A stretch of DNA of 64,000 nucleotides from contig NC_021017.1 in assembly GCF_000210075.1 (NCBI RefSeq), positions 5,411,037-5,475,036 on the forward strand. Direction: 5' to 3'. This document shows, in pieces, positions 12,082 through 58,514 of this stretch. The notes under the pieces are model-generated. The model did no database searches, was not told the origin of the DNA, and was given only the letters and a program-made list of their open reading frames with translations. The first letter of the stretch is position 1, and every line of letters begins with the position of its first letter. The DNA is from Bacteroides xylanisolvens XB1A (GTDB taxonomy: Bacteria; Bacteroidota; Bacteroidia; Bacteroidales; Bacteroidaceae). The translations under genes were made by a program, and so were the position numbers.

Positions 12082-13191
12082 ATGGGGAAACGGGTTATTC
12101 TATATCTATTTCTGTTATTTTCACTGTCCTTACAGGCGCAAAGTGAAAAGAAAACCCTTTCTACAAATGATAGCACAAGAATAGATTCCACAACGGTCAC
12201 CCAGCCCAGTCCTTTCAAAAGAGCAATCAAGAAATTTATGAATTTCAGTGATTTTGATACGCTCTATATCAGCCCGAACCGTTATAATTATGCGTTGATG
12301 GCTACTCATTTCAGCAACTTCGAATATTACTCTGTCACCAGCGAACAGCCTCAACCACAAAAACTTAGTTTCTCTCCTAACCCGCATAATAAAATAGGAC
12401 TGTATTTCGGCTGGCGATGGATTTTCCTGGGATGGTCCGTAGATGTGGATGATATCTATCGGAAAACCAACCGGAAGAATAGAGGTACAGAATTTGACCT
12501 TAGCTTATATAGTTCCAAACTTGGTGTAGATATATTCTACCGCCGTACCGGAAACAATTACAAGATACATAAGATCAGAGGATTTTCTGAAGATATTCCC
12601 TCCAACTATTCCGAGGATTTCAGTGGAATAAAGGTGGATATAAAAGGGCTGAACTTATATTATATCTTCAATAACAGAAAATTCTCTTATCCGGCCGCCT
12701 TCAGCCAGTCCACCAACCAACGACGCAACGCGGGAACATTTATTGCCGGTTTTTCTATTTCAAAGCATCATCTCGACTTCGACTACACAGAACTTCCTGA
12801 TTTTCTACAGCAGACAATGAATCCCGGTATGAAAGTCAAGGATATAAAATATACCAATGCCAATATCAGTTTCGGATATGCCTACAACTGGGTCTTTGCC
12901 CGCAACTGCCTGGCATGTTTGTCTCTCACCCCTGCCATTGCCTATAAAGCCTCTGATGTAGATGCGGAAACTCACGAAGGAAAAGCATGGTACGGCAAAT
13001 TTAATCTGGATTTTCTACTCCGTGCAGGGGTTGTTTATAATAACGGAAAATACTTTGTAGGTACTTCTTTCGTTGGGAAAAACTATAATTACCACCGGAA
13101 TAATTTCTCTGTAGACAATGGTTTCGGCACTCTTCAGATATATGCCGGATTCAATTTCAACTTACGCAAAGAATACAGGAAAAAGAAATAA
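12082..13191 (+). CDS. DUF4421 outer-membrane-like protein
   Basis: I choose ATG 12082, giving 369 residues and a clean signal peptide [24 protein letters not shown] at 12046 with an AAAGG site upstream would add 12 residues and cannot be excluded. The body is rich in alternating aromatic/polar strands ([34 protein letters not shown]), as expected for an outer-membrane beta-barrel, and matches the Bacteroidetes DUF4421 family. Function unknown. It stands between the divergent SusC and the biotin operon, whose promoter begins 30 bases after its stop. Confidence 0.8.
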
Positions 13192-13220: not shown

Positions 13221-13251
13221 CTTGCTTATCCAAAGAATCTTTGTACATTTG
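13221..13251 (+). promoter_or_regulatory. Promoter of the biotin operon
   Basis: The -7 element TACATTTG (13244-13251) is preceded by CTTG (13221-13224, one change from TTTG) with an ideal 19-base gap. Transcription would begin near 13257-13260, so the first ATG on the mRNA is at 13283. No obvious BirA-type operator is visible. Confidence 0.65.
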
Positions 13252-13282: not shown

Positions 13283-15697
13283 ATGAAGCAACAACGCCAC
13301 ATACAGACCACACGTACTCTTCTTTCCCGCTTCCGTTATTGGGGCAGAAAGAACTATGCCGCTTTTGCGAGTATGGGACGTGAATTCCAAATCGGTCATC
13401 TGCACATCAATGTTGTGGACGTTGCCCTTCGCAAGCAGAATGCTAAAATTACTATCCCTTATCATACATTTATGACACTTCAGGAAATAAAAGACCAAGT
13501 GTTGGCAGGCATTGATATTTCGCCCGACCAAGCCGCTTGGCTAGCCAACATGGCTGACAGCGAGGCGCTATATGCCGCCGCACATGAGATTACCGTCGCA
13601 CGTGCTTCGCACGAATTCGACATGTGTTCCATCATCAACGCCAAGTCCGGCCGATGCCCGGAAAACTGTAAATGGTGTGCACAATCCTCTCACTACAAGA
13701 CTAAAGCCGATATTTACGATCTCCTTCCCGCTGAAGAATGTCTCCGACAGGCGAAATACAATGAAGCCCAAGACGTCAACCGTTTCTCTCTCGTTACCAG
13801 CGGACGAAAACCATCTCCCAAACAGATCACCCAACTTTGCGATACCGTTCGCCAAATGCGACGTCACTCGTCCATTCAGCTCTGTGCTTCTCTGGGGTTA
13901 CTTAACGAAGAAGAGCTACGTTCCCTATACGAAGCCGGAATCACCCGTTATCACTGTAACCTGGAAACGGCTCCGTCTTATTTTTCCAAACTCTGTACTA
14001 CGCATACACAAGAACAAAAACGAGCTACTCTTGATGCAGCCCGCCGTGTAGGCATGGATATCTGCTGCGGAGGTATCATCGGTATGGGAGAAACGATGGA
14101 GCAACGGATTGAATTTGCTTTCACTTTAAAAGAACTGAATGTTCAGTCCATACCTATCAACCTGCTTAGTCCGATTCCGGGAACTCCACTGGAAAACGAG
14201 CAGCCTTTAAGCGAAGAAGAAATACTTAAAACCATCGCTATCTTTCGTTTTATTAATCCGACAGCTTTTCTAAGATTTGCCGGAGGACGTTCACAACTTT
14301 CTTCCGAGGCGATGCACAAAGCATTATATATCGGTATTAACTCGGCTATCGTAGGCGACCTGCTGACAACTCTCGGTTCCAAAGTATCGGAAGACAAAAA
14401 GATGATTCAGGAAGAAGGTTATCATTTCGCCGCTTCCCAATTTGACCGCGAACATATCTGGCATCCGTACACTTCTACCACCGATCCGCTTCCTGTCTAC
14501 AAAGTGAAACGGGCAGACGGTGTTACCATTACCCTCGAAGACGGACAAACGCTCATTGACGGAATGTCTTCCTGGTGGTGTGCAGTGCATGGATATAATC
14601 ATCCGGTATTGAATCAGGCGGCAAAAGAACAATTAGATAAAATGTCTCATGTCATGTTCGGAGGACTGACGCATGATCCGGCCATTGAATTGGGGAAACT
14701 ATTATTGCCTTTGGTTCCTTCCTCCATGCAGAAAATATTCTATGCAGACTCCGGTTCGGTAGCCGTAGAAGTGGCACTGAAAATGGCTGTACAATATTGG
14801 TATGCAGCAGGAAAACCGGAAAAGAACAATTTCGTGACTATCCGTTCCGGCTATCACGGTGATACGTGGAATGCCATGTCTGTATGTGATCCGGTGACGG
14901 GTATGCACAGTCTTTTCGGTTCAGCATTGCCTGTACGTTATTTTGTCCCGTCCCCCACTTCCCGGTTCGACGGAGAATGGAATCCGGAAGATATACTGCC
15001 TCTGCAAGAGATAATTGAAAAACATTCAAAAGAGTTAGCGGCGCTTATCCTGGAACCGGTGGTACAAGGAGCAGGTGGAATGTGGTTTTATCATCCGCAG
15101 TATCTGCGTGAAGCAGAAAAGCTTTGCCGGAAGCACGATATTCTTCTAATCTTCGATGAAATAGCAACGGGATTCGGACGTACCGGCAAACTTTTTGCTT
15201 GGGAACACGCCGGAGTAGAACCGGATATCATGTGCATCGGCAAAGCACTGACCGGAGGATATATGACACTTTCTGCTGTATTAGCCAGTAACCGGATAGC
15301 AGATACCATCTCCAACCATGCACCGGGAGCTTTTATGCACGGGCCTACATTTATGGGTAATCCACTTGCGTGTGCAGTAGCTTGCGCTTCCGTTCGCCTA
15401 TTACTCGAATCCGATTGGCAAGAGAATGTGAAGCGAATCGAAACTCAACTGAAAGAAGAACTGGCACCTGCACGGGAATTTCCGGAAGTAGCTGATGTAC
15501 GAATACTCGGAGCTATCGGAGTCATTGAGATGAAGCGTCCGGTAAATATGGCCTATATGCAACGACGATTTGTGGAAGAAAGAATCTGGGTACGTCCCTT
15601 TGGCAAACTGGTATATCTGATGCCGCCTTTCATCATTACTTCGGAACAATTAGGCAAACTGACTTCCGGGCTACTTAAAGTCATTCAAAAAAGATGA
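13283..15697 (+). CDS. bioB-bioA: Bifunctional BioB-BioA (biotin synthase / DAPA aminotransferase) with N-terminal leader
   Basis: One frame encodes, in order, a 63-residue leader (13283-13471), biotin synthase BioB and adenosylmethionine-8-amino-7-oxononanoate aminotransferase BioA. In BioB (counted from MTLQ at 13472) the radical-SAM motif is C62-x3-C66-x2-C69 (RCPENCKWC), with further cluster Cys in IQLCAS, YHCNLE and DICCGG. BioA starts near [12 protein letters not shown] and its PLP Lys is in CIGKALTGG. Fused BioAB proteins are known in Bacteroides. The frame stays open back to 13118, but the promoter at 13244 makes 13283 the first usable ATG; 13472 would give a conventional 741-residue protein, yet has no ribosome site. 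First gene of the biotin operon. Confidence 0.9.
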
Positions 15698-15918: not shown

Positions 15919-17073
15919 ATGACATTAGAGTATATAAACCAAGAACTCCAGACCTTGAAAGAGAAAAAGAACTACCGTTCTCTCCCACCGCTAATCCACG
16001 AGGGGCGAGATGTTCTGCTGAACAGACAACGAATGTTGAACCTATCTTCTAATGATTATCTCGGACTGGCCAATGACATTTCATTGAGGGAGGAATTCTT
16101 AAGGACGCTCACTCCCGAAACTTTCCTGCCTACCTCCTCTTCTTCCCGGTTATTGACCGGTAATTTTAGTGACTATCAGAAGTTGGAGCAACAGCTAGCC
16201 ACCATGTTCGGAACCGAAAGTGCACTCATATTCAATAGTGGTTATCATGCCAATACAGGAATACTTCCTGCCATTTGCAACACTCACACCCTGATTCTTG
16301 CTGACAAGCTGGTGCATGCAAGCCTGATAGACGGAATTAAATTATCATCAGCTAAATGTATCCGGTATCGTCACAATGATATTTCCCAGTTGCAGCGACT
16401 GATTGCTGAAAATCATAACGCTTATGAGCAGATTATTATTGTTACCGAAAGCATCTTCAGCATGGATGGCGATGAAGCTGATCTTCCCGCTCTCATTCAA
16501 CTCAAGAAGAGCTATTCCAATATTCTTCTTTATATAGATGAGGCTCATGCTTTTGGTGTACGAGGGAAAAAAGGATTAGGATGTGCTGAAGAACAAGAAT
16601 GTATCAACGATATAGACTTTCTAATAGGTACATTCGGGAAAGCCATTGCCTCGGCAGGAGCGTATATTGTCTGCCGGCAACTCATTCGGGAATATCTAAT
16701 CAATAAAATGCGCACGTTTATATTCACAACCGCTCTTCCACCTATCAATATTCAGTGGACTTCATGGGTGTTAGAACGTCTTCCAGCTTTACAACAGAAG
16801 AGAACTCACCTGCTACAAATCAGTGAAAAGCTGAAGGAAGCCCTTACAACCAAAGGATACAATTGCCCCTCGGTAAGCCATATTGTCCCTATGATTGTCG
16901 GAGCAAGTGAAAATACCATATTGAAAGCAGAAGAACTCCAACGCAAAGGATTTTACGCATTGCCGGTACGTCCGCCTACCGTACCCGAAGGGACTTCACG
17001 CATCCGCTTCTCACTGACAGCGGACATCACCGAACATGAAATCGACCAACTCATTAAACTGATAAACGGATGA
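15919..17073 (+). CDS. bioF: 8-amino-7-oxononanoate synthase BioF
   Basis: A 384-residue PLP enzyme of the alpha-oxoamine synthase family, normal length. It condenses pimeloyl-ACP (or -CoA) with L-alanine to give 8-amino-7-oxononanoate, the substrate of BioA. Seen motifs are LNLSSNDYLGLAN, SSSSRLLTGN, IFNSGYHANTG, DEAHAFGVRG (cofactor binding Asp/His) and LIGTFGKAIASAGAY, with the PLP Lys in GK. Its stop overlaps the start of bioG by 4 bases (ATGA), showing translational coupling. Confidence 0.96.
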   Translation: MTLEYINQELQTLKEKKNYRSLPPLIHEGRDVLLNRQRMLNLSSNDYLGLANDISLREEFLRTLTPETFLPTSSSSRLLTGNFSDYQKLEQQLATMFGTESALIFNSGYHANTGILPAICNTHTLILADKLVHASLIDGIKLSSAKCIRYRHNDISQLQRLIAENHNAYEQIIIVTESIFSMDGDEADLPALIQLKKSYSNILLYIDEAHAFGVRGKKGLGCAEEQECINDIDFLIGTFGKAIASAGAYIVCRQLIREYLINKMRTFIFTTALPPINIQWTSWVLERLPALQQKRTHLLQISEKLKEALTTKGYNCPSVSHIVPMIVGASENTILKAEELQRKGFYALPVRPPTVPEGTSRIRFSLTADITEHEIDQLIKLING

Positions 17074-17729
17074 AACAGTATTTTATCATAAAGAATAATC
17101 AAAAGCATCTATTGCTTTTCTTCGCAGGCTGGGGAATGGATGAAACTCCATTCCTGCAAATTCACCCGACCGATAAGGACTGGATGATTTGCTATGATTA
17201 TCGTTCATTAGAGTTCGATGCCGACATTTTGCAAGAATATTCCGAAATCACCCTCATTGCCTGGTCAATGGGAGTATGGGCAGCCTCACAGATAATGAAA
17301 CAATATCCATCCCTGCCCCTTTCCCAAAGTATCGCTATCAATGGGACTCTTTATCCCATACATGAGACGAAAGGGATTACTCCTACCATTTTTGAAGGAA
17401 CCCTGCAAGGACTGAATGAACAATCCCTGCAAAAGTTTCAAAGAAGAATGTGCGGTTCAGCAGCCGATTACAAGGCTTTTCAGACAGTAGCTCCCCAACG
17501 TCCCGTTGAAGAGCTCAAAGAAGAGCTTGCTGCCATACAAAAGCAATACTTATCATTGCCACCGTCGGATTTTGCATGGCAAAGAGCCATCATAGGAAAG
17601 AGCGACCGTATCTTCCTGCCGGATAGCCAATGGTTGGCATGGAAAAACAAAGTGGATTCCCTTGAATATACAGAAGCCGCTCATTATCAACAAGACCTTT
17701 TTGATAATGTAATCATGCAAATCAACTAA
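17070..17729 (+). CDS. bioG: Pimeloyl-ACP methyl ester esterase BioG
   Basis: A 219-residue alpha/beta-hydrolase of the BioG (DUF452) family. FFAGWGMDE forms the oxyanion region, the nucleophile is Ser66 in AWSMGVW, and His near [12 protein letters not shown] completes the triad. It hydrolyses pimeloyl-ACP methyl ester, ending the disguised fatty-acid cycle that BioC starts; BioG replaces BioH in many bacteria. It lies between bioF (4-base overlap) and bioC (10-base gap), as expected. Confidence 0.93.
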
Positions 17730-17739
17730 TGATCGATTT

Positions 17740-18507
17740 ATGGATAAACAACTAATCGCCGAACGTTTCTCTAAAGCCATTGCTACTTATCCCCAGGAAG
17801 CAAACGTACAACGGCAAATAGCAGATAAAATGATTCACCTGCTTACAGAACACATCTCTTTTCCCTGTTCAAAAGTGATTGAGTTCGGATGCGGCACAGG
17901 TATTTATTCCCGTATGCTACTTCAGGCTCTTCGGCCGGAAGAATTATTGCTAAACGACCTTTGCCCGGAAATGAAGTACTGTTGTGAGGATATATTAAGA
18001 AAAGGACAGGTTTCCTTTCTTCCGGGAGATGCAGAAACAGTTCCTTTCCCCGCTGAAAGTACATTAATTACTTCCTGCTCGGCTCTGCAATGGTTCGAAT
18101 CTCCTGAAAACTTTTTCAAAAGGTGCAACGCCCTGCTTAATAACCAAGGCTATTTCGCTTTCAGCACTTTCGGTAAAGAGAATATGAAAGAGATACGAGA
18201 GTTAACAGGAAACGGGCTCCCTTATCGTTCACGGGAAGAGCTTGTAACAGCCTTGTCATCCCACTTTGACATACTCCATTCGGAAGAAGAACTTATTTCT
18301 CTTTCGTTTGATAACCCCATAAAAGTACTTTATCATTTGAAGCAGACAGGAGTAACCGGAATATCCGGCACCTCTTCCCAACAACTGCGGACACGTCGTG
18401 ACTTGCAGTTATTCAGTGAACGTTACACACAAGAATTTACCCAAGGCACTTCAGTGTCCCTGACCTATCACCCTATTTATATCATCGCAAAAAAGAAAAA
18501 AGTATGA
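17740..18507 (+). CDS. bioC: Malonyl-ACP O-methyltransferase BioC
   Basis: A 255-residue SAM-dependent class I methyltransferase. Motif I is [12 protein letters not shown], followed by LNDLCPEM and [11 protein letters not shown], then the BioC-typical [15 protein letters not shown]. It methylates the free carboxyl of malonyl-ACP so that fatty-acid synthesis can build the pimeloyl chain. A short gap from bioG and a 4-base overlap with bioD place it in the same operon. Confidence 0.95.
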
Positions 18508-19151
18508 AACAGAATGTATATTTCGTAAGCGGTATCGACACCGATGCCGGCAAGAGCTACGCCACCGGATTTCTAGCTCGTGAATGGAACAAGAACGGAC
18601 AGCGTACCATCACTCAAAAGTTTATCCAAACAGGAAACATCGGTCACTCCGAGGATATTGATTTGCATCGTCGTATCATGGGAATCTCCTTTACAGAAGA
18701 AGACAAAGAAGGACTGACTATGCCGGAAATTTTCTCTTATCCTGCCTCTCCGCATCTAGCTTCCCAACTGGATAACCGTCCCATTGACTTCGGCAAAATC
18801 AAACGTGCTACGGAAGAGTTGAGCGAACGCTATGATTTTGTTCTGCTCGAAGGCGCAGGTGGCTTAATGGTTCCGCTAACAACAGAGCTTCTGACAATAG
18901 ACTACATTGCCCAAGAGAATTATCCGCTTATCTTTGTTACTTCCGGTAAATTGGGAAGCATCAATCATACTTTGCTTAGCCTTGAAGCCATACAAAAACA
19001 CGGTATTGTACTGGATACAGTACTTTATAATATGTATCCTACCGTAAAAGATAAAACGATTCAGAATGATACGATGAACTTCATTCAAAACTGGCTGAAG
19101 AAGTATTTCCCGGATACGAAATTTATATTAGTTCCGGAAATAAAAGAATAA
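18504..19151 (+). CDS. bioD: Dethiobiotin synthetase BioD
   Basis: A 215-residue P-loop ligase with the BioD form of Walker [10 protein letters not shown] (residues 10-18). Downstream [12 protein letters not shown] is the conserved carboxylase segment. It closes the ureido ring of 7,8-diaminopelargonate with CO2 and ATP to give dethiobiotin, the substrate of BioB. Last gene of the operon, followed at once by a terminator. With BioBA, F, G and C the pathway from malonyl-ACP to biotin is complete. Confidence 0.96.
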
Positions 19152-20830: not shown

Positions 20831-21253
20831 TTATATAGATTCCCACTCTTTATCTCTTATTAATTCTTGAATACTATTTATGAAAGTCTCTGCTTGTGGA
20901 TATAAGTTGTTTACCATTTCTTCGTCACAATATACAAAGTCATCATAATCTCCACTATGCCTTTTCTCAAATAATGTAGAAAAAGTTTTTCCTACTTTTA
21001 CAGGAAGTTTTCCTGTCGAAATAAAGTGCAGACCAAGCATCGTCTTCACCCCATTATGAGTCTGCGTTTGAATATCATATTTTAAAAGAAGAGCTACAGT
21101 TGCATAATAGCATGCATAATACAGCCTGTTAATAGCAGCATTATAGAATGACTCACGTATCATAACCTCAGCCTCTCTCAATGTTTCATAAGCACGTTGT
21201 ATCCGATAAGCGACCAGTGCTTTCTTACTTTCCTTATCTAGAATTTCTTTCAT
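20831..21253 (-). CDS. HEPN-domain protein (UPF0332 type), toxin-like partner
   Basis: A 140-residue all-helical protein matching the UPF0332 HEPN group: AYETLREAEVMI, AAINRLYYACYYATVALLLK, THNGVKTMLGLHF and FEKRHSGDYDDFVY. HEPN proteins paired with MNT nucleotidyltransferases form toxin-antitoxin modules, where HEPN is often an RNase that the MNT partner inactivates by AMP transfer to a Tyr near the active site. It follows the MNT gene with a 4-base overlap, so the two are co-translated. Whether this HEPN is an active RNase is not decided by sequence. Confidence 0.88.
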   Translation of the reverse strand: MKEILDKESKKALVAYRIQRAYETLREAEVMIRESFYNAAINRLYYACYYATVALLLKYDIQTQTHNGVKTMLGLHFISTGKLPVKVGKTFSTLFEKRHSGDYDDFVYCDEEMVNNLYPQAETFINSIQELIRDKEWESI

Positions 21254-21564
21254 AAGACAATACCTTCGTTTATCACATTTACATAAAAAGGTGTTTTAAA
21301 AGGCCGGTTCTCCCAAAATTTCTTCAAAACAACTATCGGGCTAATACTAACACCTGTTTTCAATTCCAATTCATATAAAGGTAATGTGATAGCTTCTTCT
21401 TTAGCCAATGTCATTTTATCACCTTCCACTAAAATGAGTAAATCAACATCACTATCATGCCTGGCATCCCCACGCGCCTCAGAGCCATATAAAATAACCT
21501 GCGCATTGGGAGCAACACGTTTTAATGTTTCACGAATAGCTTCTATAATCTCCGGTCTCTTCAT
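21250..21564 (-). CDS. MNT-type minimal nucleotidyltransferase (antitoxin-like)
   Basis: A 104-residue protein with the polymerase-beta nucleotidyltransferase signature GSEARGDARHDSDVDLLI (about residues 27-44), whose Gly-Ser and paired Asp residues bind NTP-Mg. It is first in a two-gene unit with the HEPN protein, the standard HEPN/MNT module. It probably neutralises the HEPN partner by nucleotidylation or binding (known for some family members; inferred here). Confidence 0.9.
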   Translation of the reverse strand: MKRPEIIEAIRETLKRVAPNAQVILYGSEARGDARHDSDVDLLILVEGDKMTLAKEEAITLPLYELELKTGVSISPIVVLKKFWENRPFKTPFYVNVINEGIVL

Positions 21565-58380: not shown

Positions 58381-58390
58381 CATAAAAAAA

Positions 58391-58411
58391 GGCTATCTAT
58401 CCCAGACAGCC
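58391..58411. terminator. Short hairpin after the HU gene
   Basis: GGCTATCT (58391-58398) pairs with AGACAGCC (58404-58411) with one mismatch. An A run precedes it and only a weak T stretch follows, so termination of the HU transcript is plausible but not strong. Confidence 0.45.
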
Positions 58412-58439
58412 AATCTTTGTTAACCTTAAATCTAATACT

Positions 58440-58514
58440 ATGAAAAACACACTACAAAGATACGAGCTTTTCGGTTATCTCCAAATTTTCAGGTCAAAGC
58501 AGTGTATCTTATAA
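58440..58514 (+). CDS. Possible 24-residue leader peptide
   Basis: ATG 58440 follows TTAACCTTAAATCTAATACT, a start context seen often in Bacteroides, and encodes MKNTLQRYELFGYLQIFRSK plus four residues. No homologue is known to me. It lies 166 bases before the AI-2E-family gene. It may be a leader ORF or chance; the rest of the 300-base gap shows nothing. Confidence 0.25.
   Translation: MKNTLQRYELFGYLQIFRSKQCIL

Follow-up and report, generated by a model that had tools for sequence, protein, structure and literature searches.

Based on the arrangement and conservation of its sequence across relatives, the 63-codon leader that is fused in frame to BioB-BioA in Bacteroides xylanisolvens XB1A is proposed to be a cis-acting leader peptide that would gate the translation of a biotin-supply gene, probably as a nascent-chain sensor of biotin status; we put the probability of this reading at about 60%. 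The cis position of the leader and its link to biotin are well supported, while the ligand and the translational arrest are presumed.

The fused leader-BioB-BioA frame and its promoter

In the window, that is, the whole 64,000-nucleotide stretch of DNA that was analysed, the leader opens a biotin operon composed of the following features.

13244..13251 (+), TACATTTG, Bacteroides-type -7 promoter element fitting TAnnTTTG, about 30 nt upstream of 13283
13283-15697 (+), leader-BioB-BioA ORF of 804 residues with 0 internal stops (translation)
13283..13471 (+), leader peptide of 63 codons, sharing its frame with BioB (translation; matches in relatives' genomes)
13325..13417 (+), conserved 31-codon block of the leader (leader alignments)
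13472..14422 (+), BioB (biotin synthase) part (TIGR00433, E = 7.9e-123, residues 79-380)
14438..15697 (+), BioA part, stop codon included (NF005940, E = 1.1e-206, residues 386-803)
15919..17073 (+), bioF (TIGR00858, E = 9e-123, 409.6 bits, a little below the cut-off of 426.45)
17070..17729 (+), bioG (PF04301 BioG, E = 4.3e-43)
17740..18507 (+), methyltransferase (PF08241, E = 5.1e-14), presumably bioC from its place in the operon
18504..19151 (+), bioD by position and family (AAA_26; PF13500, E = 1.2e-29)

The frame, which a preliminary description of this DNA had given as open from 13283 through BioB and BioA, is indeed uninterrupted over its 804 residues, and residue 64 of its product is the Met at which unfused BioB begins. 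Because the BioB and BioA models match residues 79-380 and 386-803, leader residues 1-63 lie outside both, which bears out the earlier statement that the leader is not part of known BioB. Compared alone against Pfam, the leader had no match above the cut-off. Among bio-type leaders, the similarity extends past the 31-codon block to about 13441 (..RKQ). In a structure prediction for leader-BioB, which rests on an alignment of only 13 sequences, residues 1-62 are predicted to be disordered (pLDDT < 50). A leader profile, of which the window sequence is one row, found this locus in its own genome with E = 6.3e-23 and nothing else better than 0.065, so that a chance open frame is excluded; homologs and the dN/dS values given below likewise rule it out. 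A second weak match in the same genome (L002, E = 0.547) lies in a 63-aa frame that is unrelated, and it was not retained.

The promoter element was named from the sequence TAnnTTTG, which we take to be the Bacteroides -7 promoter consensus. It would place the transcript start at about 13259 and thereby make 13283 the first in-frame ATG downstream, in agreement with the preliminary description, though the frame itself is already open from an upstream ATG at 13118. The 5' UTR before the ATG at 13283 would be about 25 nt long. Of 145 leader loci, 114 carry TAnnTTTG at a distance of 40-200 nt upstream of the block and 31 do not; in shuffled sequences, which preserved base composition only, the rate is 6.8%. 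The distance from start codon to block is 30-42 nt in 141 of the 145 loci, fused and unfused, the codon being ATG in 126; an in-frame ATG 60-72 nt before the block occurs in only 3/145.

Directly upstream of the biotin promoter lies a gene for a DUF4421 protein (PF14391; 12046-13191, +). Elsewhere, the window holds a BTncRNA_FopS small RNA (58381-58450, -; 78.9 bits) and two small overlapping ORFs (20831-21564, -), which we take to resemble a HEPN/MNT toxin-antitoxin pair.

A leader family at biotin-supply genes

A single leader sequence matched 83 of 99 genomes of the genus at E <= 1, although the weakest of these matches may be due to chance; at the matched loci, the leader was fused to BioB, formed a separate ORF before bioB, or headed ORFs of about 690 residues for TonB-dependent receptors. 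A profile of 28 leaders, one of them of receptor type (A1), was searched in 149 genomes of the family Bacteroidaceae, and a leader and a gene were counted as linked when they lay on the same contig and strand within 2.5 kb. At E <= 1e-3 the leader was found at 135 places in 132 genomes, by a profile that, like the order-wide profile A2, was built partly from genomes afterwards searched. Every one of the 135 places is at the 5' end of one of two genes: BioB at 47 places and a TonB-dependent receptor of a single type at 88. Matches with E above 1e-3, including the sole matches of G109 and G122, were excluded from the counts. By association counts that take no account of phylogeny, the leader is present in 132 of the 133 genomes with BioB or the receptor and in none of the 16 with neither, the exceptions being a receptor without leader in G153 and a bioB without leader in G102 and G116. 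The suggestion in the preliminary description that similar peptides head vitamin-related TonB receptors proves right in kind: 88 of the 135 places head or precede one type of receptor, not many receptors, and biotin is its presumed substrate. The idea that many vitamin receptors in a genome each begin with a copy of the leader was rejected, since the leader occurs essentially once per genome (135 places in 132 genomes, and one in the XB1A genome).

Across the order, profile A2 (40 rows) found the leader in 101 of 199 Bacteroidales genomes. BioB occurs in 48 of the 199, of which 30 have the leader and 18 do not, and where BioB is lacking, 67 of 71 leader places lie in frames of at least 600 residues, which is the size of the receptor (not each was confirmed as a receptor). 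In the phylum sample, leader matches were obtained in 4/296, three of them from the genus of XB1A; the fourth is the locus L248 described below. Judged by these matches, the leader is one family, found almost only in Bacteroidales.

Further arrangements link the leader to other genes. In L237-L240 (genomes G243, G323, G314 and G383), the leader ORF stands before bioA, which exceeds the NCBIfam cut-off in 4/4, and bioB is on another contig; bioA is followed by bioF-like, bioG/bioC-like and bioD-like genes (bioD-like in 3/4 stretches), for which models were tested for bioC in L238 and for bioD in L237, the others being assigned by eye. In L243 (G238), a leader-bearing receptor that is 38% identical to the receptor query P0004 ends 72 nt upstream of bioB, and L242 (G296) carries both a leader-bioB and a leader-receptor (35% identical to P0004) in one stretch. 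In L180-L186, the leader heads the ORF of a C92 papain-like amidase upstream of a leaderless receptor in 7/7 (PF05708). Read in this way, the leader is an element that goes with the first gene of the presumed transcript, not with one enzyme. The C92 (YiiX/YaeF) amidase, which bears the leader at its N-terminus (for example, L182:688-1494), perhaps releases biotin from bound forms, which is a guess.

Among 84 bioB loci that are distinct by block DNA, with close relatives among them, 51 have the leader as a separate ORF and 33 as a fusion. The separate ORFs have 92-226 codons (50/51, where a start was found). A free-standing peptide of this length that is also strongly conserved could be a small trans-acting protein, binding for example BirA, biotin or a transcription factor, and merely co-transcribed with the genes that it controls or serves. 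We consider this unlikely, as the leader heads three unrelated proteins (BioB, the TonB receptor and the C92 amidase), none of the 135 places is away from a biotin-supply gene, and two copies are present where two such genes adjoin (L242), whereas a trans factor needs one unlinked copy only. Because the same peptide stands separately before bioB (51/84), before bioA operons and on a TonB receptor, the localisation tag and the partner-binding segment of BioB considered in the preliminary description fit poorly; its third suggestion, a control peptide, fits best.

The receptor itself is a candidate for biotin uptake. BioB exceeds its cut-off in 49 of the 149 family genomes and the receptor (for example, L165:4883-6934) is found in 87, with both in only 3 (G088, G102 and G116) and neither in 16; this complementarity has a Fisher p of 4e-21 over the 149 genomes when phylogeny is ignored. 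Since genomes rarely have both it and BioB, the receptor is a candidate for importing biotin across the outer membrane, and we infer that the leader-bearing receptor would be the outer-membrane biotin transporter. The receptor query P0004 carries the leader itself, with the scoring of its matches extending over about 680 residues; in most genomes the scoring took in only 7 receptor candidates, and the absences hold at that sensitivity. Nine leaderless receptors were found behind a separate leader ORF, and a tenth, in G219, appears broken. BioY was detected in none of the 149 genomes. Sixteen of the 149 (for example, G112, G125 and G214) have no BioB over the cut-off, no receptor, no BioY and no leader at E <= 1e-3.

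Among the NCBIfam matches listed, three of four leader-bearing receptors score highest with BtuB models, and the single receptor compared with the PDB is closest to BtuB; with 81.0-142.6 bits, the four receptors stay far below the curated cut-offs of 599.7 and 836. The leader-bearing receptor differs from BtuB-type receptors in that its distribution tracks the absence of BioB. Outside the order, L248:2742-5048 holds a bio-type leader and a receptor in one 768-residue frame. This receptor is 25% identical to P0004 (E = 4e-42) and, judged by eye, has its own signal-peptide-like start about 130 residues after the start of the frame. Either the L248 leader would work although the exported protein has another functional N-terminus, or the receptor starts internally.

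After the block, the mean Kyte-Doolittle value over 18 residues is 1.25 in 62 non-bio loci versus -0.23 in 84 bio loci. It is conceivable, though very unlikely in our judgement, that the leader serves export or membrane targeting: it would have begun as an extended signal-peptide region on the TonB receptor, been taken over by bio genes, and now hold their product or its ribosome at the membrane. The receptor-type leaders could pass as an extended signal peptide, but the bio-type leaders do not: they are without a hydrophobic stretch and either stand as separate ORFs or precede enzymes that are presumably cytosolic, and the L248 receptor still has the leader upstream of its own internal signal-peptide-like sequence. 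With respect to the cis-acting gate, it is a point against that the receptor block enters a hydrophobic signal-peptide-like stretch, and the block's conservation on the receptor could partly serve export.

Conservation of the peptide and its possible coupling to bioB

Of 236 loci read, 179 have a leader match, and these give 149 distinct blocks. In 60 non-redundant loci of the 84 bio loci, codon pairs that encode the same residue differ at a rate of 0.569 in the block versus 0.518 in the Cys-cluster region of BioB. Over 39 leader codons, the pooled dN/dS is 0.094 in 86 fused pairs, compared with 0.080 for BioB in the same pairs; for 21 separate pairs, the values are 0.078 for the leader and 0.066 for BioB. 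The leader is under purifying selection at the amino-acid rather than the nucleotide level, with synonymous codons free to vary. At the amino-acid level, the leader is therefore conserved among relatives (dN/dS 0.078-0.094); the preliminary description had named the lack of such conservation as evidence against its reading.

No conserved RNA fold was found in 12 leader regions (consensus -1.34 kcal/mol, 0/5 pairs compensated), the window's own leader-region fold is ordinary (z -0.98), and no Rfam family matches the locus. The 5' UTR of about 25 nt would be short for a riboswitch, and with no Rfam match and no compensated pairs, a conserved structured RNA of the riboswitch kind is not seen upstream. 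That the functional element is RNA or DNA (a riboswitch, an operator or an sRNA target) overlapping the codons by chance seems highly improbable on these results and on a synonymous variation like that of BioB. Some codon bias would suit such an element, for instance at block Ser-16, which is AGY in 50/55 bio leaders and 36/38 non-bio leaders; the shared AGY reads equally well as common descent.

In the separate form, 33/51 loci have the leader stop no more than 20 nt away from the start chosen for bioB, 44/51 have it between -20 and +63, and 10/51 have it at exactly -4. The bridge from the block to bioB was counted in 48 of the 51 separate loci, three being too short. It is stop-free in the leader frame in 34 of these 48, compared with 1/48 and 0/48 in the other frames and with a mean of 0.37 and at most 3 open bridges in 200 shuffles; it closes early in 14/48. 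The dN/dS of the bridge is 0.52 in 21 close pairs, and among distant pairs (200 of 1203) the identity is 15% for the bridge, 57% for the leader and 56% for BioB. Since the bridge is open yet poorly conserved, translation through to bioB seems to be kept, and not the bridge protein. The near stops and the open bridge are sequence signs of a possible translational coupling of the leader and bioB.

Loss of the stop in a separate leader ORF could produce a fusion such as that in this window. On a BioB tree of 82 rows, from which 2 of the 84 are omitted (each under 121 residues), 2 changes suffice to account for the fusion, the first falling in Bacteroides and the second in Cryptobacteroides (L045); fusion is therefore rare, and many origins are ruled out. 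It persists in a clade of 31 rows with an SH-aLRT of 96. In L053:3016-4038, a draft titled Bacteroides nordii, and in L017, the leader-BioB frame is cut short within BioB, at 340 residues counted from the start of the leader, by frameshift or sequencing error.

Within the window used by the script, the native BioB Met is kept in 31 of the 33 fused loci; of the other two, L026 has a Met by eye and none was seen in L045. Given this retention, internal starts may add to BioB. Extra initiation at 13472 may occur here, and as a point against the gate, BioB could escape it by internal initiation. It has also to be weighed whether translation of BioB-BioA starts only at 13472, with the leader as a remnant. 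The retention of Met-64 and the BioB N-terminus would be compatible with such a start, which we nevertheless find scarcely credible, because the leader's dN/dS in fused pairs is near that of the enzyme (0.094 and 0.080), the start codon before the block is kept in 141/145 loci whether fused or not, and the fusion is maintained across the 31-row clade.

Proposed gating mechanism and comparison with known systems

In the proposed mechanism, the leader would be translated near the 5' end of the mRNA and act in cis on the translation of that biotin-supply mRNA. Its conserved stretch of 31-39 residues, a length suited to the ribosome exit tunnel, may act inside the tunnel. An ample supply of biotin, of biotinyl-AMP or of a signal linked to BirA would make elongation halt or slow in the leader. 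Halted ribosomes would then not reach BioB in the fused form and would not reinitiate on BioB in the separate form, in which Rho-dependent polarity along the untranslated bridge could also take part. When biotin is short, ribosomes would get through the leader. In the fused form found here, the gate would be the enzyme's own N-terminus. Arrest is presumably the simplest route by which a leader could act in cis in its separate, fused and signal-peptide forms. Known arrest peptides mostly stop near their conserved part and rely on an RNA switch close by; in contrast, the separate leader ORFs run on for tens to more than 100 codons, and no RNA structure was seen. It may also be held against the gate that the leader is missing from 18/48 order-wide BioB genomes, that 14/48 bridges are closed early, and that the promoter element is missing from 31/145 loci.

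A wider claim, which we hold tentatively and at somewhat less than even odds, is that this would be the first leader peptide to read the level of a vitamin in the exit tunnel: a nascent-chain biotin sensor that serves as an interchangeable module on biotin synthesis and on a newly recognised outer-membrane biotin transporter in Bacteroidales, and that in Bacteroides is built into the N-terminus of BioB, where the first residues of the enzyme would gate its production. Among the literature matches listed, which consist of titles and the beginnings of abstracts with the subscription literature mostly outside them, there is no description of the leader or of a Bacteroidales biotin TonB receptor, and the word 'TonB' is absent from the text of PMC6593275. 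The leader bears on the regulation of biotin in Bacteroidaceae and on its uptake in those members without BioB. It names a candidate regulator and, by association, a candidate biotin receptor, and offers a possible translational switch in genetically tractable gut bacteria. If the arrest is true, metabolite-sensing leader peptides would extend to a vitamin and include an example that forms part of the very enzyme under its control.

The BirA repressor acts on DNA by means of a helix-turn-helix domain. The BirA repressor system has the same targets, namely biotin synthesis and uptake (compare PMC6593275). The only BirA found in the XB1A genome has 252 aa and a ligase match over 229 codons, which leaves little room for a repressor domain; as judged from this length, an N-terminal helix-turn-helix is unlikely to be present.

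The nearest mechanism found is that of CutF in the cutFOG operon of Rhodobacter capsulatus, in which, according to PMC9973294, a translated upstream ORF likewise controls the next gene through its nascent chain in response to a nutrient; CutF relatives occur upstream of metal genes in many bacteria. In the same source, CutF is described as exported and copper-sensing, with a C-terminal stalling-like motif and an mRNA stem-loop. The biotin leader, in contrast, is conserved at its N-terminus, has no conserved stem-loop, is linked to biotin and can be fused to the product of its gene; the two are likened by mechanism, not by sequence. Unlike TnaC, a short free-standing ORF that senses tryptophan, the biotin leader is a longer ORF and is often fused. 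Nevertheless, TnaC of the Escherichia coli tnaCAB operon resembles the biotin leader in being a sequence-conserved leader peptide with action in cis and a link to a metabolite (PMC8429421 and PMC10941005). As for leaders of the TnaC and CutF type, the biotin leader has an upstream position on what would be a shared mRNA (135/135; promoter element in 114/145), and its amino acids are conserved.
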